64,000 nt of DNA from assembly GCF_000280925.3 (NCBI RefSeq), contig NZ_CP012109.1, forward strand, positions 8,700,501 through 8,764,500. Reading direction: 5' to 3'. Positions 1 to 9,355 of the stretch are shown here, piece by piece (position 1 is the first letter of the stretch; each line of letters begins with the position of its first letter). The stretch is from Myxococcus hansupus. GTDB lineage: Bacteria > Myxococcota > Myxococcia > Myxococcales > Myxococcaceae. Below the pieces are notes generated by a model that was given only the letters and a program-made list of their open reading frames with translations, was not told the DNA's origin and did not search any database. The translations under genes were made by a program, and so were the position numbers.

Positions 1-2740
1 CGGTCTGATGGATGCCCGAGAGGACGGCCAGGTCTGGCTTGCCGCTGCCATCGAAGTCCGCCGCCACCAGCCGCGTGGGATGGCGTCCCGCGGGCAGCGT
101 CCGGATGATGAACGTGCCGTCTCCCCGCCCATGAAAGAGCGTGACGGTGTCTGCGTCCGCATGGACATACGCCAGGTCCTGCGTACCGTTGCCATCGAGG
201 TCACCGGAGATGAGGTGGCTCGTCTCTCCGAAGCCGTACCACGTGTGGTGGTGCAGGCGCAGGGGCGCGGCGAACCGGCCGCGGCCATCCCCTTGCAACA
301 GATAGATGGAAGATTCACCCGCCCCCACGACGAGCGCGGCGATGTCCAGATGCCCATCGCCGTTGAAGTCCTCGGCGGTGGCGAAGCGGACGTTGTCTGC
401 CAGTTCGCCGATGTGTTCGGACACGAAGGTGAGCGGGCCTCGACCGTAGAAGGCCTGGAGCGCGTGGCCGACGACCATCAAGTCCCGTTGGCCGTCGTTG
501 TCGAAATCACCGGCGACCACGGTGCTCCCCGGAGTGTGGGAGAGCTTCTCTCCCTCGAAGGCCAGCGTCAGCCGCCCCCCTTCGGTGTGGCGCATGACGA
601 CAATCCGGTGGGTCAAGGCGACGACGAGCTCGGGTGTCCCGTCACCATCCAGGTCCGTTGCGACCGGAGGGGTGAGTGCATGATTGGAGTTGTCGTTGAA
701 CCGGTACGGAATGGAGCTCTGGACCGCATCATGGAAGTGACCGTCGCCCTGGCCGCGCAGGACCTGGAGGCTGGAGGTACCGCTGGAGCGGGCGTCGACG
801 GCAATCAGGTCGAGGTTGCCGTCCTGGTCCAGGTCCGCGGTGACCATGTGCTGTCCGGGCAGCCGGTTTCCGACCTGAGCGTTCGGGACGGTGAAGCCGC
901 CATGGCCCTGGCCTCGCAGCACCCACGCCTGCTCGTCGGAGGCCGAGCTGTTGTGCAGCACGGCGATGTCGGGCTTGCCGTCCCGATTGAAGTCACCCAG
1001 CGCGGTTCCATAGGTCCGCGCCGGATAGGGCTGGCGCAGGCGCCGCGTCGGGTTGGCATCCAGGTTCACCTCGCAGCGCTGCGCCGGAGCGGCGAGCGCC
1101 ACGGTGAAGGTGCGCGTCGCGGGTGAGGTGCCAGGGACGACGGCGGTGATGCGGAGCCGCGCGGAGGGTGCGACGCCGGGCACGTCCCTGGGGCGGTTCC
1201 AGCGAAAGGTGTGCGCCGCTCCACTGGGTGAAGTGTCGAGGGCGGTCAGTCCGGACGAGAAGTCGAAGAGGGTATCTCCCGCGAGGGTCGCGCGGGTGAA
1301 GTCGCCGCTGCCGGTCGCATCGAACTCCACGAGGACGTCCGCGCGCTCCTTGTCCACCTGCCGCAGGGTGTAGGTCACGGGCCGGCAGCCACGGTCCTCC
1401 GAGGGGGCGTCGACCTGTGTGAGCTCCACGGGGGCGGGGAGCGACTTCACGGGGGCCGGCGCCGCGCCGGCGGGGCCTTCCCCCGCGGCATTTCGAGCGA
1501 TGACGGTGACTGTCTGGGCCTTCGTGCTGGGGACGCCCTCCAGGACACTGCTTCGCAGGTCCGCGCCCACGTCCATCCGCACGCCGGAGGGCCGCGCTTC
1601 CACGGTGTAGCCGATGAGCGATGAACGGCCATCGGATTCCGGAGGCTGCCACGTGACGGTGAGCGTGCGCACGCCAGGCTCGGCCGCGACAGAGATGGGC
1701 GCACCCGGCCGCGCGTGTGTGCGCGCGGTGACCCCGCGGCTCTGGAGCCCCTGGCCCACCTCGTTTGTGGCGGACAGGGTGAAGGTGTACTCGGTGTCGT
1801 CCAGGAGGCTGGTGAAGGAGGCCACCGTGGCGGTGCCCTCGAGCTGCTGCGTGGCGCCCCCCGGCGAGGCCGTCACGAGGTAGCCGGACACGGGCAGTCC
1901 GCCCGTGTCCTCGGGCGACTGCCAGGAGACGGAGACCGCTCGCACCCCCGGCGAGGCGGACACGGACGTGGGCGCGCCCGGTGGTGCCGCGGGAATCACG
2001 ACGGAGGACGCTTCGGACACAGGGCCCGTGCCCACGGCGTTTACCGCGCGCACGGTGAACGTGGAGGCCACGCCGTTGGGCAACCCACTCACGGTGGCGG
2101 ACAACGACGTGCCTTCTGAATCGACGCTCGCGCCGCTGGGCTGGGCCGTCACCACGTAACGCAGCACGGGGCTCCCACCATCGGACGCAGGTGCTCGCCA
2201 GGAGATGTGGGCCTGCCGGTCGCCGCGCGCCACGGTGAGGGACTCGGGCGCGGTCGGAACATCCGGCAGTCTCACCGCCTCCACGCTCATGACAGGGCTG
2301 GCGCCCACGGCGTTCCGCGCGGCGACGGTGAAGCGGTAGGTGCCTCCCGCGCGCAGTCCGGTGACGCGCGCGGAGGTTCCGTCCACCCGCACCTCCATGC
2401 CGCCTTCGAGCGGCTCGACGCCGACGTCGTAGCCCGTAATCGCGCTGCCGCCATCCCGCGCGGGCGCGAACCAGGTGAGCGTCACCAGGCCCGGGGCCGG
2501 TAGCGCGGTCACCAGGAGCGGCGCGGAGGGGGCCGTGGGTTCAGGCGGCTTGGGTGGCCGGAGCTGTTCGCACCGGGAGGCATCCGCCACGCACAGGTTG
2601 GCGTCCACGCAGCACGTCCATCCACCGGCGCAGGGGCAGGGCCGCTCTCCCTCGTCCACGGGATTGATGCAGCCGGAGAACAGCAGGACGCCCAGCAGCA
2701 AGCTCAGGACGTGGGAGGAATGTTTCGTGAAGGTCTTCAT
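1..2740 (-). CDS. Secreted FN3 / FG-GAP (VCBS) repeat protein, C-terminus cut by window edge
   Basis: A minus-strand frame stays open from an ATG at 2740 to the window edge (913 codons), so the C terminus is missing. The N terminus is a lipoprotein-type signal (LLLGVLLFSGC, Cys about residue 23) followed by a short Cys-rich stretch. Four fibronectin type III domains follow at roughly residues 55-420, each with the DGGSxVxxYxV and YTFTVxAxNxxG signatures. After a linker of about 110 residues there are at least five FG-GAP/VCBS repeats (GDFNRDGKPDIAVL, ADLDQDGNLDLIAV, TDLDGDGTPELVVA and similar), which form a calcium-binding beta-propeller. Such proteins are usually exported and act in adhesion or surface binding; the ligand cannot be told. 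The 40-bp gap to the caspase gene upstream suggests possible co-transcription with the sigma-factor operon. Confidence 0.85.
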   Translation of the reverse strand, partial: MKTFTKHSSHVLSLLLGVLLFSGCINPVDEGERPCPCAGGWTCCVDANLCVADASRCEQLRPPKPPEPTAPSAPLLVTALPAPGLVTLTWFAPARDGGSAITGYDVGVEPLEGGMEVRVDGTSARVTGLRAGGTYRFTVAARNAVGASPVMSVEAVRLPDVPTAPESLTVARGDRQAHISWRAPASDGGSPVLRYVVTAQPSGASVDSEGTSLSATVSGLPNGVASTFTVRAVNAVGTGPVSEASSVVIPAAPPGAPTSVSASPGVRAVSVSWQSPEDTGGLPVSGYLVTASPGGATQQLEGTATVASFTSLLDDTEYTFTLSATNEVGQGLQSRGVTARTHARPGAPISVAAEPGVRTLTVTWQPPESDGRSSLIGYTVEARPSGVRMDVGADLRSSVLEGVPSTKAQTVTVIARNAAGEGPAGAAPAPVKSLPAPVELTQVDAPSEDRGCRPVTYTLRQVDKERADVLVEFDATGSGDFTRATLAGDTLFDFSSGLTALDTSPSGAAHTFRWNRPRDVPGVAPSARLRITAVVPGTSPATRTFTVALAAPAQRCEVNLDANPTRRLRQPYPARTYGTALGDFNRDGKPDIAVLHNSSASDEQAWVLRGQGHGGFTVPNAQVGNRLPGQHMVTADLDQDGNLDLIAVDARSSGTSSLQVLRGQGDGHFHDAVQSSIPYRFNDNSNHALTPPVATDLDGDGTPELVVALTHRIVVMRHTEGGRLTLAFEGEKLSHTPGSTVVAGDFDNDGQRDLMVVGHALQAFYGRGPLTFVSEHIGELADNVRFATAEDFNGDGHLDIAALVVGAGESSIYLLQGDGRGRFAAPLRLHHHTWYGFGETSHLISGDLDGNGTQDLAYVHADADTVTLFHGRGDGTFIIRTLPAGRHPTRLVAADFDGSGKPDLAVLSGIHQT

Positions 2741-2780
2741 CTCAAACGTCACAACGATGGGCGCCAGCGCATTGGACGAA

Positions 2781-4397
2781 TCAGAATGCGCCCGTGAGGC
2801 CCAGGCCCGCGCCTTCCGAGCCGAGGGTGGCCAAGGGCATCGTGTCCGTGTCGGGCCACAGGAACAGCAGCGCGCCTCCGAGCACCGCCGCGCCGCCCAA
2901 GCCGTAGAGCACCCCACTGGTGGTGTTGAGGGCGTTGATGCGGCGGTTGCGCGCGGCGGCTTCCTGCTGGGGCAGGTTCGGAGGGACGCCGTTGCGCAGG
3001 TCTCGGGCCTTCAGCGTGGTCCACATCCCGACGCCCGCGGAGGCGACGCCCAATGACAAGGCCCCCCAGCCCAGTTGCTTCCGGAGGCGCCCCGGCTCCC
3101 GGGCGTCCTCCATCAGGGTCAGTGATGGGGGCGGACGGAGTTCGAAGCCAGAGACGGTGTCGCTGCCGAAGGGCAGGGTGAAGATGTGCTGGAAGGCCGC
3201 GTGCGCCGCGCCGCGTGAGGCCACGCGAGGGGCTTCGGCGGACAGCGATTCCAGGCGCACGACATCCTGTGTGGTGGGGAGCGCGAACTCCTGCGTCTCA
3301 TCGCCCACGCGTCGCAGGAACACCGGGCCGCGCGGCGGTGGGCGCAGCAGGCGCAGCGCTTGTCCCTGTGCGTTGTGGAACTCCGCGAGGCGCACGCCGT
3401 TGGCGTCCTCCAGCAGGTAGTGCGCGCCCTGGGCGCCGTCGACCTCGAGCCGCCGATCCATGCCCGGGCGCAGGTCCACCAGCAGCTCGGAGCCCTTGGG
3501 TGGACGCGCGTGGAGTTGGGGACGGAAGCGCTCATTGGGGATGGCCGCGTTGGCGCGCTCCACGAAGGCGGCGATTTCGCGGTAGCTCACCTGGCCGTCG
3601 CCGTCCGCGTCCGCCGCGCCGAACAGGCCCGAGCGCACCTCGTGGTTGAAGACGCCGGCTTCGAAGGCCTCCCACTCGTGGCTCTCCCGGGCGGATGAGG
3701 TGGACAGCAGCAGTCCGACGTTGTCCGCCAGCGCCAGGCCCACCGCGCGCGTGAAGCCCGCGGGCAGGGGACGCCGCTGTCCGCCCGGGCCCCGGCTGTA
3801 GGCGAGGAAGTAGGAGTAACAGGCGTCGACGATGAGGTGGACGCGGTCGGCGCCGAGCTTGCCCACCACCTGCGTGGACAACTGCTGTCCGGTGAGTGGG
3901 CCGTCCTCCAGACTCACGTAGCCCTCGCCGTTGCGCACGTTGCCGTGGCCCGCGTAGACGACGTAGGCCACCGTCTCCACGCCCCGGCTGCGCGCCAGCG
4001 CGATGTCCTCGCCCAGCTTCTTCACGGAGGCGGACAGCTCGGAGTGCTTGGGGTCCAGGGCCTCGGCGGCGGCCTGTGGGTGCAATCGGCGCGTGTTGTC
4101 ATCCAGGCGCGCCAGCAGGTAGGTGCGCGCGCCGAGCATGCGGAACAGGTCGAGGTAACGCGCGGCATCGTCGTCCGCGAAGCGCAGCTCGGGCTGGTCC
4201 GGCTCGTGGCTGCGGTTGACGCCGATGATGAGGGCGAAAGAGGCGGTGCTCGGCGGAGGCGGTGCGGTCTCCGGGGCCGCGGAGCGTGGCGGCATCTCGG
4301 CTCGCAGCGATGCCGCGCGAGGGGGTGGCGTGACCTCCGGTGTGGACGCCCCCACCGCCACCGGGAGCAGGCCAAGGAGCAGGATGGCGAATCTCAT
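2781..4397 (-). CDS. Caspase-family (C14) cysteine protease with EF-hand and C-terminal membrane segment
   Basis: This 538-residue protein starts with a signal peptide (RFAILLLGLLPVAVGAS) and has a caspase/metacaspase-type p20 domain at about residues 53-245. The catalytic dyad is visible: His151 in YAGHGN and Cys193 in VDACYS. An acidic pocket FADDDA precedes the His. A canonical EF-hand loop (DADGDGQVSYRE, about 263-274) suggests calcium control, as in metacaspases. A beta-rich region follows, then a hydrophobic C-terminal helix (LYGLGGAAVLGGALLFLW, about 505-522). The start overlaps the anti-sigma stop by 4 bp (ATGA), so it is translationally coupled as third gene of the sigma/anti-sigma operon. 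Inference: it may process an envelope target or the anti-sigma factor. The substrate is unknown. Confidence 0.85.
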   Translation of the reverse strand: MRFAILLLGLLPVAVGASTPEVTPPPRAASLRAEMPPRSAAPETAPPPPSTASFALIIGVNRSHEPDQPELRFADDDAARYLDLFRMLGARTYLLARLDDNTRRLHPQAAAEALDPKHSELSASVKKLGEDIALARSRGVETVAYVVYAGHGNVRNGEGYVSLEDGPLTGQQLSTQVVGKLGADRVHLIVDACYSYFLAYSRGPGGQRRPLPAGFTRAVGLALADNVGLLLSTSSARESHEWEAFEAGVFNHEVRSGLFGAADADGDGQVSYREIAAFVERANAAIPNERFRPQLHARPPKGSELLVDLRPGMDRRLEVDGAQGAHYLLEDANGVRLAEFHNAQGQALRLLRPPPRGPVFLRRVGDETQEFALPTTQDVVRLESLSAEAPRVASRGAAHAAFQHIFTLPFGSDTVSGFELRPPPSLTLMEDAREPGRLRKQLGWGALSLGVASAGVGMWTTLKARDLRNGVPPNLPQQEAAARNRRINALNTTSGVLYGLGGAAVLGGALLFLWPDTDTMPLATLGSEGAGLGLTGAF

Positions 4398-5350
4398 GGC
4401 GTGACCTGGAGCTGGAGCGAGAGGGACTCCGCGCCGGCGGGGAGCACGGCTTCCAGGTCCCCCCGCGCCACGAGCGACTCCATCTGTTTCACGGTGAGCG
4501 GCGACTCCAGGAAGACCGCGTGAAGGGTGAGGGGCCCGGGCACGAGCGGATGAGAGATGGCTTCGGGCAGCTCGCGCAAGGTGTCCCCAGCGGGGATGGG
4601 AATCGCCGAGGGGTTGCTCGCCTCGTCGGTCCAGCCCGGGTGGTACCAGTGGACGCGGCCCGAGGCGTCGCGGGCGAAGACCATGAGGAACCGGTGGGCG
4701 TCGGGGTTGCGGAAGGCGAAGGCCAGCTCTTGTTCGGGCCGCAGCGTCGGGCCCAGCAGGCGGGTGTGGCCTCCGGGCGCCACGGCATAGGCGAGCAAGC
4801 GCGCCTGGGCCGCCGCGTTGCCCGCGCCCCGGGCGGTGAAGCCCAAGGGGTCGGTGGATGCGGAGGGCAATCGGACCACGAGCAGCGCGAGACCGGCCAC
4901 CGCCACGGGGGCGAGCAGCCATCCGCGGAGCCCTTCCTTGCCGGACGACCTGGGCCTGGTGTCTCCGCGAACGGGGTGGCCGGAGGTTGGAGCCGCCGAG
5001 GTGTCCGGGTTGAGGGCCGGCCGGTCCGGAACGGAGGTTCCATTCCTCGCCGCGCCGCCGGGGGCGAGGCGCGCTGGCGTCGCGGACTCCCGTGGGGCGC
5101 CCATGCGGTGGCGCATCCGCTGCCAGAAGGAGGCGGGGCGTCGTGCCTCGAGCCCCAATCCCCGCGCCAGCCGCGTCCGCGCATCCGGAGCGGACGGGTC
5201 GAGCCGGGCGAGGAGGAGCTGGCGCTCGTAGCGCTCACGGCAGTGGGCGCAGTCCTGGAGGTGCTCTCGCATGCGGCGCTCGTCCGGCGGGGTGATTCGC
5301 GCGGAGAAGTGACGGTCGACGAGGGGGAGGAGGTCGCAGGGGGGGCTCAT
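4394..5350 (-). CDS. Zinc-finger membrane anti-sigma factor with DUF4384-like C-terminal domain
   Basis: The 318-residue product begins with an anti-sigma zinc-finger motif (about residues 9-45; HLQDCAHCRERY gives the His-x3-Cys-x2-Cys pattern of ZAS domains). A single membrane helix lies around residues 145-165 (LLAPVAVAGLALLVVRL). The C-terminal half (about 220-318) resembles DUF4384-type domains (ELAFAFRNPDAHRFLMVFA, then VHWYHPGW), which in other bacteria sit with caspase-like or sensor proteins. It overlaps the sigma gene upstream and the caspase gene downstream by ATGA. Family knowledge: the zinc finger sequesters the cognate sigma factor at the inner membrane while the outer domain senses the envelope. 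The stimulus is unknown. The chosen ATG is the one in the ATGA overlap; the open frame continues upstream without a plausible start. Confidence 0.8.
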   Translation of the reverse strand: MSPPCDLLPLVDRHFSARITPPDERRMREHLQDCAHCRERYERQLLLARLDPSAPDARTRLARGLGLEARRPASFWQRMRHRMGAPRESATPARLAPGGAARNGTSVPDRPALNPDTSAAPTSGHPVRGDTRPRSSGKEGLRGWLLAPVAVAGLALLVVRLPSASTDPLGFTARGAGNAAAQARLLAYAVAPGGHTRLLGPTLRPEQELAFAFRNPDAHRFLMVFARDASGRVHWYHPGWTDEASNPSAIPIPAGDTLRELPEAISHPLVPGPLTLHAVFLESPLTVKQMESLVARGDLEAVLPAGAESLSLQLQVTP

Positions 5351-5982
5351 GGGGCCTCCGGGGTGAGGAGGAACCGCTTGAGGAGCTGGCGGATGCGCAG
5401 CTCCTGGTAGGCGAGGGTGGTGCGGTGGATGCGCAGCGTGGCGGCGGCCTCGCGCTGGCTGAGCTGGCGGATGAAGCGGGCTTCGAAGACGGGCGCCCAC
5501 TTGGGCGGCAGGCACTTCTGGCGGAAGTGCTCCAAGAGGAGGCTGGCGTCGAGCCCCGGCTCGGGCGGCGAGAGCTCCTCGGCCGTGGACTCCGCGGCGA
5601 GCTGGGCGAGGATGTCCGACTCGCGCCGCTGGCGGCGCACCCGGTCCACGGCGAGGTTGTGGGCGACGCTGTGAAGCCATGCCGCCAGGGAGCCGCCGTG
5701 GAAGGTGCGGCGGGCGCGCTCATCGGACACGAGGCGGAGGAACACGTCATGGACCACGGTCTCCGCGTCCACGGACGGGAGGATGCGAGCGGCGGCGCGG
5801 TACACCGTGTCGAAGTGCTCGCGGTAGCACGCGTTGAGCACCTGGGCGTCCCCGGCATGGAACCGGGCAAGCCAGCGGCTCGCCTCCTCCGAGGTGTCTT
5901 CGCTCGCGGGGTGACGGTGAGAGGGGCCAGCGGGGTCCACGAAATGCCCAACGTCCGGGACGAGGGACATGGACGAAACCAT
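5347..5982 (-). CDS. ECF-type RNA polymerase sigma factor
   Basis: The 211-residue product (207 if the second ATG at 5970 is used) carries sigma-70 region 2 (about 45-115: YREHFDTVYRAAARIL, then HSVAHNLAVDRVRRQRR) and region 4 (about 150-205: SQREAAATLRIHRTTLAYQE, a helix-turn-helix). Regions 1 and 3 are absent, as in extracytoplasmic-function sigma factors. It heads a coupled operon: its stop overlaps the anti-sigma start (ATGA), and that gene overlaps the caspase gene. No clear Shine-Dalgarno precedes either candidate ATG. Region 4 ends in a long basic tail (RIRQLLKRFLL). The sigma most likely drives its own operon, but no promoter matching an ECF consensus could be picked in the 68 bp between 5983 and 6050. 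Confidence 0.82.
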   Translation of the reverse strand: MVSSMSLVPDVGHFVDPAGPSHRHPASEDTSEEASRWLARFHAGDAQVLNACYREHFDTVYRAAARILPSVDAETVVHDVFLRLVSDERARRTFHGGSLAAWLHSVAHNLAVDRVRRQRRESDILAQLAAESTAEELSPPEPGLDASLLLEHFRQKCLPPKWAPVFEARFIRQLSQREAAATLRIHRTTLAYQELRIRQLLKRFLLTPEAP

Positions 5983-6050: not shown

Positions 6051-7112
6051 CTACGGCCGGCGGCGGCTCCCCAAATCCAGCATGTCCCGTGTCACCACGG
6101 CCATCCGCGTGGGGCCGCTCAGGGCCTCGCCGCAGAAGGCATAGACGAAGTGCGTCTGGGCCTTGCCCCTGAAGGCGGGGTGCTGGAAGAGGTCGTACTC
6201 GAAGTGTCCCGTCACCAGCGCGCCCGCTTCCACCGGCGTGTCCTGGAAGCAGGGGACGCGGAGGGAAATCACCTCGGCCCCACCGGTGCGGCTGCCAATC
6301 ACCACCAGGGACACGGGGATGATGGCCACCGGACGCGGCTGGCCATGGCCGTCGTCGTCCTCCTCCACCGACGGCTCGGGCTTCGGCGGAACCCGCTCGT
6401 GGGCGAGCACGGGCACGTGGAAGGTGCCGCGGATCCACGCGGGCTTCCCGGGCTCGTACAGGAACACGCGCTCACCGTGCACGGTGATGCCCGGGGCCTC
6501 CGGCGCGGGAGGACTGTCCGGCCGTGCCTGGAACTGGCGTTCGTCCTCGCCGGGGGCGTACCGGACGGGCTCGGGCGGTGGGGGCTGTTGCTTCAGGGAC
6601 TCCAGGAAGCGGGTGACCTCTTCATCCTGGTAGCCGGGCACGGAGCGGGTGACCTGGACCTGCACGCGGTTGGAGGTGCGGTCCAGCATCAGCGCCAGCA
6701 GCAGGTAGGTGCCGGGCTGCTGCATCGTCTCCAGGCGGAGCGCATCCGTCTGCTCGACGATGGCCATGGCCCCGTTACCCGGAGGCGCTGGGTCGGGGTC
6801 GTCCTGGTCGAACAGGCCCGGCTGCTCGGGCGGCTCGGCCAATGGGGTGATGTCGAGCGTCCGGTCTTCCAGCCGCACCCCCACGAGGTGCGCCGTGCTC
6901 CACGGGTCATAGATGCGCGCGTCCTGCTGCTTCACGGCGTACAGCGACAGCAGCGGGATGCGGTCGTCCGTCCGGAGGTCGGCTCGCGCGGGTGCGTCCA
7001 GGAACAGCCCGTAGCGGTCCTCGGGGACGAACTTACGTAGCACCTGGGAGGTGAACTTGAACGGGTCGGTCCAGTAGTCCCGGCCCTCGATTTCGAAGAT
7101 GCCCGGTGCCAT
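6051..7112 (-). CDS. Hypothetical protein, last gene of metallopeptidase operon
   Basis: A 353-residue protein without a recognised domain. It begins 5 bp after the stop of the metallopeptidase gene; I chose the ATG of MAPGIFEIEGRDYW over an upstream in-frame Met because the longer form would run into the preceding gene. The sequence is mainly beta-rich, with no signal peptide or membrane segment. A central acidic/proline linker (PPKPEPSVEEDDDGHGQ, about 255-272) separates two halves: the first has charged strands and DPDPAPPG loops, the second ends in HFEYDLFQHP and FVYAFCGEALSGP. The tight spacing with the protease and with two more unknown proteins upstream suggests the four act together. 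Function unknown. Confidence 0.7.
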   Translation of the reverse strand: MAPGIFEIEGRDYWTDPFKFTSQVLRKFVPEDRYGLFLDAPARADLRTDDRIPLLSLYAVKQQDARIYDPWSTAHLVGVRLEDRTLDITPLAEPPEQPGLFDQDDPDPAPPGNGAMAIVEQTDALRLETMQQPGTYLLLALMLDRTSNRVQVQVTRSVPGYQDEEVTRFLESLKQQPPPPEPVRYAPGEDERQFQARPDSPPAPEAPGITVHGERVFLYEPGKPAWIRGTFHVPVLAHERVPPKPEPSVEEDDDGHGQPRPVAIIPVSLVVIGSRTGGAEVISLRVPCFQDTPVEAGALVTGHFEYDLFQHPAFRGKAQTHFVYAFCGEALSGPTRMAVVTRDMLDLGSRRRP

Positions 7113-7117
7113 GTCCG

Positions 7118-9355
7118 CTAGGCCTTCCAGTTCGTGGTGATGTCGAGCGCGTCGCTGGCCTTGATGTAGCGCGTGCACTCCGGGCAGTAGCTGAACTGCG
7201 CCGCCTTCGTCTGGTCGCCGGCGCCGAACAGGACACAGTTGCTGTCGAGCATGTATTCGGGAAGGTTGAAGCTCTTGACGCTCAAGTCCTTTCCTCCCAC
7301 CTTCAAACCGTGCGCGCAGTGCGAGCCCTTGTGCCCGCGGCCCGCGTAGAAGAACCCCGCCGGGATGAAGGCGTCGAACGGGACGCCGGGAATCTGGTGC
7401 TTGGTGAGTCGGCCCCGGCTGTCCGTCGCGGCGCCCTTGTTCTCGATGTACGCGTGGCCCAGGTTGTGGCCGATTTCATGGCACAGCGTCCGCGCCACGC
7501 CTTCGGCGGTGCCCAGGCCCATGCACGGCGTCATGCGAATCTTCCCTTGAAGGGCGTTGGCGTTCGCCCCCATCTGGAAGTGGCGGAGCCCCAGGGTGAC
7601 CACGATGCGGTGCTCGTAGCCGTTCCAGTTCGTCAGGTACTGGCCCGGGTCCTGCGGGTCGGTGCTCGGCAGCTTGATCTTGAACTTCTTCGCCGACTCG
7701 AAGTCGACCCACTTCGAGGCCTCCGGCAGGGTGGCGGGAAGCACCTCCGTGATCTCCCAACTGTCCCAGATGGAATTGAGAAGGGTTTGCCCGGGCTCGG
7801 CTTCCTTCCAGATGACGTCCCGCGGCAACCAATCGGTATCACCCAGCTTCCGGAAGCCGGTGATGCGCCAGTAGACCTTCTCCACGCCCCAGAGGTCTCC
7901 GGGGCCCGTGCACACGGGGTTGCGCAGGGCGGAGAGCAGCCCCTTGGGCGTCGTCTGGGCCACGGGGGTGGGGACGTGTTCGAACTTGGCGACGTACTCG
8001 CCGGGCGTCGCGGCGCTCACGTCCGCGTCATCGTCGGACAGCGTCTTGGGCAGCATGTCCGTCCAGACGAGCATGAGCCGGCGAGGGTCCGCGGGCGGAT
8101 TGTGGAGGACGCGGTCCCGGAGGGCATCCAGGTCCTTGGGGGACAGGAACGTGCAGTTCTTGCCCGGGGTGAGCCGGTCGTGGACGTATGCGCCCGGCAG
8201 GATGAAGGTGTCCGTGCCGCCTCGAGCCGAGAGCAGCGCGTTGATGTCGGCGTCCGTGTAGACGGCGCGGAAGGCGTCGGGGAACGTCAACTCGATGAAC
8301 AGCGGGTCGAGGATGCGCTTGAGGGCGGACTCGAAGTCCGGGTGGGGCTTGGGGTCCGCGTCGTCGTTGTTGACGATTTTGTCCCAGCCCTGCCGCAGGT
8401 TGCTGTGGGGGACGACGAACTCGGACTCCAGCCGCCGCCAGTTGCACACCCAGAGTTCGTCATCGCCCGTGCCGTCGTCGAAGCCGACCTGGATGTGGCA
8501 CATGTCGCCGCCGGCGTAGCCGAGCTGGACATGGAACACGCAACTGCCGCCATTCGCGGGCAGGGTGAGCTGTTCCTTGTAGACGAGGGCCGCCGTCCCG
8601 GGTGCCGCCCCCGCATCCGTGCTGGTCTTCGCCAGGCCGTTGATGATGAGCGCCGGACGGGGCGTGGTCCGCTTGCTGTTGGTGGCCTTGAAGGTGACGC
8701 ACACGCTGATCTTCTGGTCCTTCAAGCCGAGCGCCCGGTCATGCGGTGCGACTTCCACGCGCATGAGGTTTCCCTTCTCCGTGCCGTCCGTGATGGGGAG
8801 GTTCACGTACTGCTTGAAGGGGGCGTCCTCGGCCTTGCCGTCGGTGTGCGAGGTGATTTTCGCCGTCCACGGGAGCTGGGAGACCTCGAGCGCGTAGCTC
8901 GCGGCCTCGTCCGCGGAGGCCGTCTTCTTCTCGAGCTTCCAGGGCGAGACGGCATCGAAGCTGTGGGCGGCCTTCTCGAGCGGGCCCGCCCATTTGCCGC
9001 CCGTCACGGTGGGCTTCTCGGACTTCTCGCCCTGCTGCAGCGAGAACATGAAGCCTTCCGCGGAGCCCTTGGCGCCTGCCTGCATCTTGACGTCGAGCTT
9101 CAGGGTCTTGGGCCAGACGCGGAAGGTGTCCGAGCCCGAGAGGAGGTCCTCCTGCTCCGGGAGCTTGTAGTTCCACGAGATGACGTAGTTCTCCATCCCC
9201 GCGGGGACCTTGCCGCAGGTGTGCTCGTGGGTCGGGGCCGTCGCCTTCTCTTCCTTGCCCTTGCCGTCCGTGTTGATGAGGGTGAATTCGACGGCTTCCT
9301 CGGTCTCGACGCCCTTCAGCTTGATGGGGTCGCCTTCGTAGACCTCGTATTGCAC
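7118..9355 (-). CDS. Large HEXXH zinc metallopeptidase-like protein
   Basis: A 745-residue protein starting MQYEVYEGDPIKLKG, with no signal peptide. The first ~400 residues look like repeated beta-sandwich segments (for example YALEVSQLPWTAKITS and HVQLGYAGGDMCHIQVGFDDG). The C-terminal part holds a zinc-protease signature CHEIGHNLGH at about residues 625-634, giving HEXXH plus a Gly and a third His close by. Further His and Cys residues follow (GHKGSHCAHG about 674-683; a CPEC pair about 724-727), which could bind a second metal. The motif does not fit the spacing of classical metzincins (HEXXHXXGXXH), so I do not assign a MEROPS family. Absence of a leader plus beta-rich N-terminal modules is compatible with a contact-dependent or cargo-type effector; this is inference only. 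Confidence 0.75.
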   Translation of the reverse strand: MQYEVYEGDPIKLKGVETEEAVEFTLINTDGKGKEEKATAPTHEHTCGKVPAGMENYVISWNYKLPEQEDLLSGSDTFRVWPKTLKLDVKMQAGAKGSAEGFMFSLQQGEKSEKPTVTGGKWAGPLEKAAHSFDAVSPWKLEKKTASADEAASYALEVSQLPWTAKITSHTDGKAEDAPFKQYVNLPITDGTEKGNLMRVEVAPHDRALGLKDQKISVCVTFKATNSKRTTPRPALIINGLAKTSTDAGAAPGTAALVYKEQLTLPANGGSCVFHVQLGYAGGDMCHIQVGFDDGTGDDELWVCNWRRLESEFVVPHSNLRQGWDKIVNNDDADPKPHPDFESALKRILDPLFIELTFPDAFRAVYTDADINALLSARGGTDTFILPGAYVHDRLTPGKNCTFLSPKDLDALRDRVLHNPPADPRRLMLVWTDMLPKTLSDDDADVSAATPGEYVAKFEHVPTPVAQTTPKGLLSALRNPVCTGPGDLWGVEKVYWRITGFRKLGDTDWLPRDVIWKEAEPGQTLLNSIWDSWEITEVLPATLPEASKWVDFESAKKFKIKLPSTDPQDPGQYLTNWNGYEHRIVVTLGLRHFQMGANANALQGKIRMTPCMGLGTAEGVARTLCHEIGHNLGHAYIENKGAATDSRGRLTKHQIPGVPFDAFIPAGFFYAGRGHKGSHCAHGLKVGGKDLSVKSFNLPEYMLDSNCVLFGAGDQTKAAQFSYCPECTRYIKASDALDITTNWKA

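Follow-up and report, generated by a model that had tools for sequence, protein, structure and literature searches.

Metacaspase genes located beside sigma factor genes have been described in myxobacteria. In Myxococcus xanthus, four of the five metacaspases are encoded in operons with sigma-70 factors, and such operons also occur in Anaeromyxobacter, Haliangium, Sorangium, Ralstonia, and Fibrobacter (Asplund-Samuelsson et al. 2012, PMC3501461). The sigma/metacaspase operon in Myxococcus has been in print since that survey, which tied the myxobacterial metacaspases, speculatively, to developmental cell death. Like the locus described here, the operons reported there combine a sigma factor with a metacaspase; the section devoted to them makes no mention of an anti-sigma factor, a linker site, paired promoters, or a mechanism.

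In the CASP/Craspase system (Csx29 TPR-CHAT, Csx30, CASP-sigma; PMC10028731), a caspase-fold protease cleaves the protein that inhibits an ECF-like sigma factor, and the inhibition is lifted, much as is proposed for the present locus. However, the Craspase protease is a CRISPR RNA-guided TPR-CHAT protein, whereas the protease studied here is a PF00656 protein with an export signal. The part of PMC10028731 used here describes no membrane anchor for the Craspase inhibitor, in contrast to the membrane zinc-type anti-sigma factor of our locus. Proteolytic control, with a caspase-like domain nearby, was likewise proposed for ECF54 (CHAT, subtilase, and carboxypeptidase context); in the part of PMC8999054 used here the proposal involves no anti-sigma factor, unlike ours. 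In RseA/DegS and RsiW-type regulated intramembrane proteolysis, a membrane anti-sigma factor receives an extracytoplasmic site-1 cut and is then processed by a site-2 protease (PMC10028731), as is proposed below. Our locus differs from both in that the gene for the candidate protease overlaps the anti-sigma gene within one operon. To our knowledge, none of the site-1 proteases of the RseA/DegS and RsiW-type systems is a caspase, and few substrates are known for the bacterial relatives of caspases.

The window (the whole 64,000-nucleotide stretch of Myxococcus hansupus DNA that was analysed) contains the following genes and promoter-like elements:

5949..5977, minus strand: promoter-like element 1, TTCGTCC-N17-CGTT, 5′ of the sigma gene, from the ortholog alignment
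5347..5940, minus strand: ECF-type sigma factor, reading frame open to 5982 (PF04542, 3e-10; TIGR02937, 2.8e-14)
4394..5350, minus strand: membrane anti-sigma factor, 318 aa, with a zinc-type N-domain, one TM stretch, and a beta-rich ectodomain (residues 184-316)
2781..4397, minus strand: caspase, 538 aa (PF00656, 23.8 bits vs a cut-off of 21.4)
2752..2780, minus strand: promoter-like element 2, motif and spacing as in element 1, in 11 of the 12 closest loci
1..2740, minus strand, incomplete because the window ends within the gene: fn3/FG-GAP repeat lipoprotein, lipobox by rule of thumb

The genes are ordered sigma, anti-sigma, caspase, and at both junctions the neighbours share a 4-base ATGA, so the coupling claimed in the original prediction is real. 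Among the matches listed, a spacing of exactly -4 was found at 38 of 61 related sigma/anti-sigma junctions and at 45 of 61 anti-sigma/caspase junctions. Because the same spacing was seen in only 12 of 95 other co-directional gene pairs, for which the start-calling rule differed slightly, it is more frequent in these loci than expected by chance. The assignment of the first gene to the ECF type was also correct, since its profile matches cover sigma regions 2 and 4 only (PF04542 and TIGR02937). TIGR02937 spans residues 49-204 with 53.1 bits against a cut-off of 42.9, and PF04542 is over its cut-off as well; PF04545 (region 4) alone scored below its own (14 vs 24.1 bits).

Element 1 has an identical spacing upstream of the sigma gene in 12/12 closest loci, the window counted in. 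It overlaps both ATG 5982 and ATG 5970; judged from the sequence, neither of these is probably the start of the sigma gene. We therefore propose GTG 5940, a choice that also agrees with shorter orthologs. Element 2 begins directly 3′ of the caspase stop codon and precedes the lipoprotein gene, whose product matched FG-GAP_3 (4.8e-48) and fn3 (4e-42). A single promoter-like motif ahead of both the sigma gene and an fn3/FG-GAP lipoprotein gene looks new. The lipoprotein gene seems to belong to the unit, and we propose it as a target of the sigma factor. The motif was found in none of the nine more distant loci examined (L054-L062). Five of them (L054-L056, L058, and L059) have instead a 4-base overlap between the caspase and lipoprotein genes.

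The linkage was surveyed in the best 80 loci found, eight of which were dropped for having under 900 bases upstream. Among the matches listed, 67 of the 72 judgeable Myxococcota loci have a sigma gene no more than 5 kb from the caspase, and 61 of these are co-directional; in 59 of the 61, the space between sigma and caspase is taken up by a single ORF of anti-sigma size. The remaining 5/72 listed loci lack a sigma gene over that distance; one of them, L240, has an anti-sigma-like ORF. The survey was also run in reverse, with 39 further anti-sigma factors picked by hand from long matches not already known beside a caspase; gene calls were available for 35 of them (4/39 had none), and 30 of these 35 are followed by a caspase. 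The linkage thus holds across Myxococcota, which supports the original view of the triplet as one signalling unit. The opposite outcome named with that view, a caspase that mostly lacks the pair, is not what this caspase family shows. It is not a rule for all PF00656 caspases: the arrangement was found in only 13 of 40 sampled Myxococcota caspases (every third entry among the top 120 of the score-sorted PF00656 list), as judged by sigma matches. No match to PADLOC-DB was obtained for the sigma factor, the anti-sigma factor, or the caspase, and a role in anti-phage defence was set aside.

The caspase begins with an N-terminal export signal (by inspection), followed by the caspase domain (about 50-300), a beta region (305-373), and a C-terminal helical hairpin. 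Its main features are:

4167..4169, minus strand: Asp77, S1-pocket acid, equivalent by motif to metacaspase Asp95, in 73/73 relatives
3951..3953, minus strand: Ala149, variable S1-pocket position, equivalent by motif to metacaspase Ser156, top-ranked in covariation with the anti-sigma R/K
3945..3947, minus strand: catalytic His151, codon checked
3825..3827, minus strand: Asp191, S1-pocket acid, equivalent by motif to metacaspase Asp211, in 73/73 relatives
3819..3821, minus strand: catalytic Cys193, codon checked
3789..3794, minus strand: Arg202-Gly203, candidate self-processing site in the loop after Cys193
3576..3611, minus strand: EF-hand loop, residues 263-274, a complete 12-residue loop
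2859..3095, minus strand: C-terminal helical hairpin, residues 435-513, modelled as two long helices

The intact His/Cys dyad predicted earlier is present with the correct numbering, and both residues are invariant in 73/73 aligned relatives. We take His158 and Cys213 to be their counterparts in TbMCA2. The best structural matches of the caspase model were metacaspases and legumains (AtMC4, Z 20.1, 219 residues aligned, rmsd 3.2), and MALT1 and caspases were matched as well. Asp77 and Asp191 were equated by motif position with Asp95 and Asp211 of TbMCA2, which are among the S1-pocket residues given for that enzyme in the part of PMC4357240 used here. The protein therefore combines three traits of peptidase family C14B (metacaspases and orthocaspases): the caspase fold, the dyad, and two acidic S1 residues suited to a basic P1. 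Cutting after Arg or Lys and a dependence on calcium are further traits of this family. Metacaspases have a strict preference for Arg or Lys (PMC4357240). In the loop after Cys193, R/K occupies the first position of the candidate self-processing site in 76/76 sequences, with G next in 62/76; the flexible residues 201-220 have a pLDDT of 56-58.

The EF-hand was predicted correctly. D1, D/N3, D/N5, and E12 of the loop are kept in 73/73 relatives and G6 in 66/73, the model has it as helix-loop-helix, and EF-hand_5 matched with 0.0015 and 18.3 bits, under the cut-off of 25.9. The loop is not a hallmark of the triplet, as similar loops, counted in reading frames that also show the catalytic Cys motif, occur in caspases without the sigma/anti-sigma pair, e.g., at L137-L139. 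Each helix of the C-terminal hairpin has a hydrophobic stretch (by inspection), and from the model the hairpin is probably a membrane anchor that would insert into the membrane.

The anti-sigma factor has an H30-x3-C34-x2-C37 motif, of the kind seen in zinc-binding (ZAS) class I anti-sigma factors, and a single hydrophobic stretch, and the model shows helices. The zf-HC2 match is under the cut-off (17.0 vs 22.2 bits), and the H-x3-C-x2-C motif occurs in 37/61 relatives among the matches listed. DUF4384 was considered for the ectodomain; it was not reported up to E 1 and had no match in the same genome. When the whole model was used for a fold search, no hit reached E <= 0.001, the best being a Wzt carbohydrate-binding domain (6e-3); the ectodomain was therefore left unnamed. 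Between the TM stretch and the ectodomain there are:

4802..4873, minus strand: linker, residues 160-183
4826..4831, minus strand: Arg174-Gly175 in the linker, candidate cleavage site, codons checked

The linker has no regular structure in the model (pLDDT 50-60), which is weak evidence because the TM helix is equally low (about 50). Position 174 is R or K in 58/58 aligned anti-sigma factors, with G next in 51/58. After thinning at 40% identity the R/K remains in 44/44, whereas the next most basic column reaches 59%, and the divergent loci scored have R in 12/12. The motif scoring covered loci with complete gene calls and an anti-sigma factor, and so leaves out L051, L061, L062, L073, L074, L084, L092, and L099 (genes truncated or missed by the simple caller) and L083 (without an anti-sigma factor). 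An invariant linker residue of the type after which metacaspases cut appears to be new.

The identity of this residue was compared with the columns of the adjacent caspase. Linker K pairs with Ser at caspase position 149 in 46/46 pairs (27/27 thinned), and linker R pairs with A, S, T, V, or I. In the R rows there are A 23 and T 8 by pattern, and A 25 and T 7 in the alignment column. In a correlated-evolution model, with R/K labels outside alignment A2 assigned by eye and column 149 kept in the tree, position 149 ranked 1 of 196 columns, and 1 of 192 without a deep second clade. Position 202, the first residue of the candidate self-processing site, ranked 3 and 7; the linker and self-loop residues disagree in 9/76 pairs. 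Base composition does not explain the association of R/K with Ser. The sister-pair test had only 5 pairs on supported branches and was not significant; the pocket residue moved in the same way in 1.6 pairs on average, and never in the opposite way. Alignment A2 omits L230, L232, L237, and L239, and the pair table omits L082 and L302, which have no caspase-domain match (L082 has, by eye, K with Ser). Covariation between the linker residue and the lone variable S1-pocket position of the neighbouring caspase also looks new. The original suggestion that the caspase might cleave the anti-sigma factor thus gains indirect support from the invariant linker R/K and the pocket covariation, and less strongly from the caspase loop residue, all of which are consistent with cleavage.

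Gene order, motifs, covariation, and the twin promoter-like elements were read directly from the DNA. The explanation we favour, and hold to be somewhat probable, is that the envelope metacaspase-like protease is the site-1 protease of the co-encoded anti-sigma factor, in a positive feedback unit that includes the lipoprotein gene. Bound by the anti-sigma factor, the sigma factor would stay at the inner membrane. The exported, probably membrane-anchored caspase would be activated by an envelope signal, calcium, or a self-cut after Arg202, and would cleave the anti-sigma linker after Arg174, directly beyond the membrane. Release of the sigma factor would then fall to a site-2 protease; members of this family are present in the genome (PF02163, best 2.6e-75). 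The freed sigma factor would drive its own operon, giving more caspase, and the lipoprotein gene. This proposal supplies a defined substrate, bond, specificity pocket residue, and candidate target gene for a bacterial caspase. If it is true, caspases belong among the site-1 proteases through which envelope signals reach transcription, in a signalling role rather than killing. We are evenly divided on its broader form: a phylum-wide module whose dedicated anti-sigma site-1 protease is an exported caspase bearing a calcium-type loop, with a linker that resembles the self-processing site, coevolution of pocket and substrate between Arg and Lys on several occasions, and, as a result, insulated parallel switches within one genome. 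If true, several parallel copies in one genome would be a natural test of protease/substrate insulation.

The caspase could instead be an output, with the sigma/anti-sigma pair sensing the envelope otherwise and merely expressing a secreted protease and a lipoprotein for other targets (surface-protein processing, killing, or development). ECF sigma factors often control the genes next to them, element 1 would place the caspase itself under sigma control, and lipoprotein-like products were found for 44/83 co-directional genes downstream within 400 bases vs 95/654 others. However, an output role does not predict the invariant linker R/K, the S1-pocket covariation, or the linkage kept where sigma and anti-sigma face the opposite way, and we regard it as unlikely. 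A caspase acting mainly on the lipoprotein or another envelope protein, with the anti-sigma ectodomain only sensing it by binding, would fit the 30/35 further anti-sigma factors of the same ectodomain family that are followed by a caspase, as by a binding partner. Binding alone gives no account of why the linker, which is not part of the folded ectodomain, keeps R/K, and this is by far the least probable alternative.

The linker R/K-G may also be structural or the site of another protease, its covariation with the caspase reflecting shared operon descent. Five anti-sigma factors without an adjacent caspase (an orthologous group of four and one more) retain K-G in the linker, and therefore the motif could be partly structural; operon partners also have a common history, and the sister-pair test was not significant. 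Shared descent, however, should affect all caspase columns alike, yet position 149 came first in both rankings, and the variable distances from R/K to the TM stretch and to the ectodomain argue against a structural role. We consider this account slightly less likely than an output role, and cleavage by the co-encoded caspase remains the preferred reading. The four orthologous K-G anti-sigma genes precede a gene that, by eye, resembles a remnant of the caspase C-terminus.

The genome holding the window comprises 9.49 Mb in one contig, and the window itself has a GC content of about 70%. Three consecutive genes were located on its minus strand:

5347-5982 (as open frame), minus strand, ORF of the sigma factor
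4394-5350, minus strand, ORF of the anti-sigma factor
2781-4397, minus strand, ORF of the caspase

The coupling proposed in the original prediction was confirmed, as neighbouring genes share 4-base ATGA overlaps. The genes had been assigned to an ECF-type sigma factor, a zinc-finger membrane anti-sigma factor and a caspase with an EF-hand; the family scans match these assignments, with the zinc-finger and EF-hand models scoring under their cut-offs. His151 and Cys193 of the predicted dyad, as well as the EF loop of 12 residues (263-274), are kept in an alignment of 73 caspase relatives. Two genes upstream of the sigma gene (6051-9355; open frames of 375 and 745 aa) gave no Pfam match at ≤0.01. 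Among seven orthologous loci compared, L043 and L045 have a relative of the nearer one, 81-82% identical, ahead of the sigma gene.

A relative of the window's caspase is present in 92 of 96 genomes of the same family, and the named relatives among the matches listed belong to Myxococcota, which makes a myxobacterial origin of the window probable. The record of one fetched locus, L251, is titled Comamonas sp. KCTC 72670; mislabelling or contamination of a myxobacterial genome is probable here, since the locus is 89% identical over 7.5 kb to L076 of the window's own genome. The gene order was compared in the window and 60 fetched stretches, 61 in all. The sigma and anti-sigma genes lie upstream of the caspase gene in the window and all its 19 closest orthologs (L043-L061). 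In more distant groups of this set, where some stretches were too short or badly gene-called, the pair is found upstream or inverted beside the caspase gene, with some exceptions. One caspase group has an inverted pair together with a gene of ~250 aa after the caspase; it comprises loci L063, L064, L066, L067, L075, L085, L087, L088, L090, L093, L094 and L101.

A wider, mostly named set consisted of the best 80 of the loci found, 72 of them with enough upstream sequence. Among these best loci, a sigma gene lies within 5 kb of the caspase gene in 67/72 (61 co-directional, 6 divergent), and 5/72 have none in that interval. Of the 61 co-directional loci, 59 have the gap bridged by a single ORF of anti-sigma size; the interval in L231 and L237 is wide enough for one more gene. 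The gap ORFs contain a transmembrane stretch in 57/61 cases by a simple hydropathy rule and H-x3-C-x2-C in 37/61. Exact -4 junctions were counted in 38/61 and 45/61 cases, compared with 12/95 other pairs. Eight caspases were found in the window's own genome: six with both partners, one with an anti-sigma-like gene (judged by eye) and one with neither. For the reverse question, 39 further long anti-sigma matches were hand-picked and fetched; of the 35 with a gene call, a caspase follows in 30 and is not next in 5. Unlike the window's caspase family, PF00656 caspases at large show the arrangement in just 13 of 40 systematically sampled cases.

In the structure model of the anti-sigma factor, a confidently modelled helical N-domain is followed by a transmembrane helix of low confidence (148-158, pLDDT about 50) and a linker at ~160-183 without regular structure (pLDDT 50-60); the beta-rich ectodomain (184-316) is again confident. 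In an alignment of 58 sequences, 17-45% identical to the window's protein, one column is always basic (46 R, 12 K), with G directly after it in 51/58. This residue lies 7-32 residues past the transmembrane stretch and 6-19 ahead of the first ectodomain strand. It is kept in 44/44 rows after thinning at 40% identity, and no other column is more than 59% basic. In 500 linker shuffles [KR]G occurred in a mean of 18.7 and a maximum of 30 linkers, against the 51 observed. All 12 scorable divergent loci have R at the candidate cut by eye, followed by S (6), G (3), K (2) or A (1).

In the caspase model, the caspase domain is accompanied by a helix-loop-helix resembling an EF-hand, a beta region and, at the C-terminus, a helical hairpin. 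By structure, the model is matched best by Arabidopsis metacaspase 4 (Z 20.1, 219 aligned, rmsd 3.2) and by legumains. With the N-terminal export signal, judged by inspection, and the hairpin, the caspase domain would share a compartment with the anti-sigma ectodomain, outside the inner membrane. The window's caspase ends in GAGLGLTGAF past the hairpin (2781-2860), and many relatives have G-x-F type endings. In contrast to this hairpin, the C-terminal parts of the caspases in L077, L078, L079, L080, L082, L095 and L096 resemble, by eye, outer-membrane beta-strand sequence; perhaps a single protease domain is combined with several kinds of anchor.

According to PMC4357240, metacaspases have a strict preference for Arg and Lys at P1, and the S1 residues of T. 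brucei MCA2 are Cys92, Asp95, Ser156 and Asp211 (the third is printed as Ser159 in PMC6426788). By motif position, their equivalents in the window are A74, D77, A149 and D191. Positions 74, 77 and 191 are invariant in 73/73 sequences, and position 149 is variable. Position 202, in a low-confidence loop past Cys193, is basic in 76/76 caspases and followed by G in 62/76, and for these reasons looks like a self-processing site akin to the anti-sigma site. The two sites are alike in the window (YSR-G and TAR-G).

The linker residue (R or K) was compared with caspase columns 50 to 300 in 54 loci with both proteins aligned; positions 78 and 149 came out on top, the MCA2 S1 list being already known when columns were ranked. 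The set was then 136 pairs, or 76 after thinning at 75% identity. Linker K is paired with Ser149 in 46/46 cases (27/27 thinned), and linker R with A (47), V (18), T (13), S (10) or I (2). By plain mutual information, position 202 was the best of 202 columns and 149 the second; position 202 is R in 48/49 R loci and K in 19/27 K loci. A correlated-evolution model with one rule was applied to 196 columns on a tree of 76 caspase domains, built with column 149 included; it placed 149 at rank 1 (likelihood ratio 28.3, next 21.8), 202 at rank 3 and 78 at rank 12. When the deep second clade was removed, leaving 60 rows and 192 columns, 149 was again at rank 1 (29.4, next 18.4), with 202 at rank 7 and 78 at rank 32. 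The caspase tree requires at least 8 R/K changes, 5 of them forced by well-supported branches. A sister-pair test, with only 5 pairs on such branches, was not significant, and 0 pairs ran in the wrong direction. K and R loci are alike in GC (0.676 and 0.666), and among the 49 loci above 67% GC, Ser149 occurs in 18/18 K rows versus 7/31 R rows. R-type and K-type systems exist side by side in the window's own genome.

What speaks most strongly against the candidate cut site is that five anti-sigma factors without a neighbouring caspase still have K-G in the linker. Four of them form one orthologous group (L310, L312, L314, L321). Here, a gene of 174-203 aa follows sigma and anti-sigma and resembles, by eye, the C-terminal part of the long L077-type caspase (sequence read in L310, L314 and L321; L312 judged on gene sizes); this system has possibly lost the protease domain. 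On balance, we regard cutting of the anti-sigma factor by the caspase at the candidate site as moderately probable. Conservation of an operon with sigma factor and metacaspase has been in print since 2012 (PMC3501461). In CRISPR CASP systems, a caspase-like protease cuts the inhibitor of an ECF-like sigma factor (PMC10028731). In the literature searched, with most subscription journals outside its scope, we found no description of membrane anti-sigma cleavage by a PF00656 caspase.

TTCGTCC-N17-CGTT stands upstream of the sigma gene both in the window and in its orthologs, even where the adjacent gene is a different one. An extended form of this motif has two copies in the window (expected 0.01): before the sigma gene, the source of its derivation, and directly past the caspase stop, ahead of the lipoprotein gene, a copy unused in the derivation. 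The whole genome contains six matches with spacing 14-16, spacing 16 occurring only in the two window copies; a backward control pattern gave one match. Among the 12 closest loci, window counted, the first element is present in 12 and the second in 11, all with N17, and none of the nine more distant loci scored has a copy. Both elements may be promoters of this sigma factor. The lipoprotein, with fn3 and FG-GAP repeats, is adhesin-like in make-up. By a rule of thumb, and in loci partly repeating each other, 44 of the 83 co-directional genes that follow the caspase at up to 400 bases are lipoprotein-like, compared with 95 of 654 other genes.
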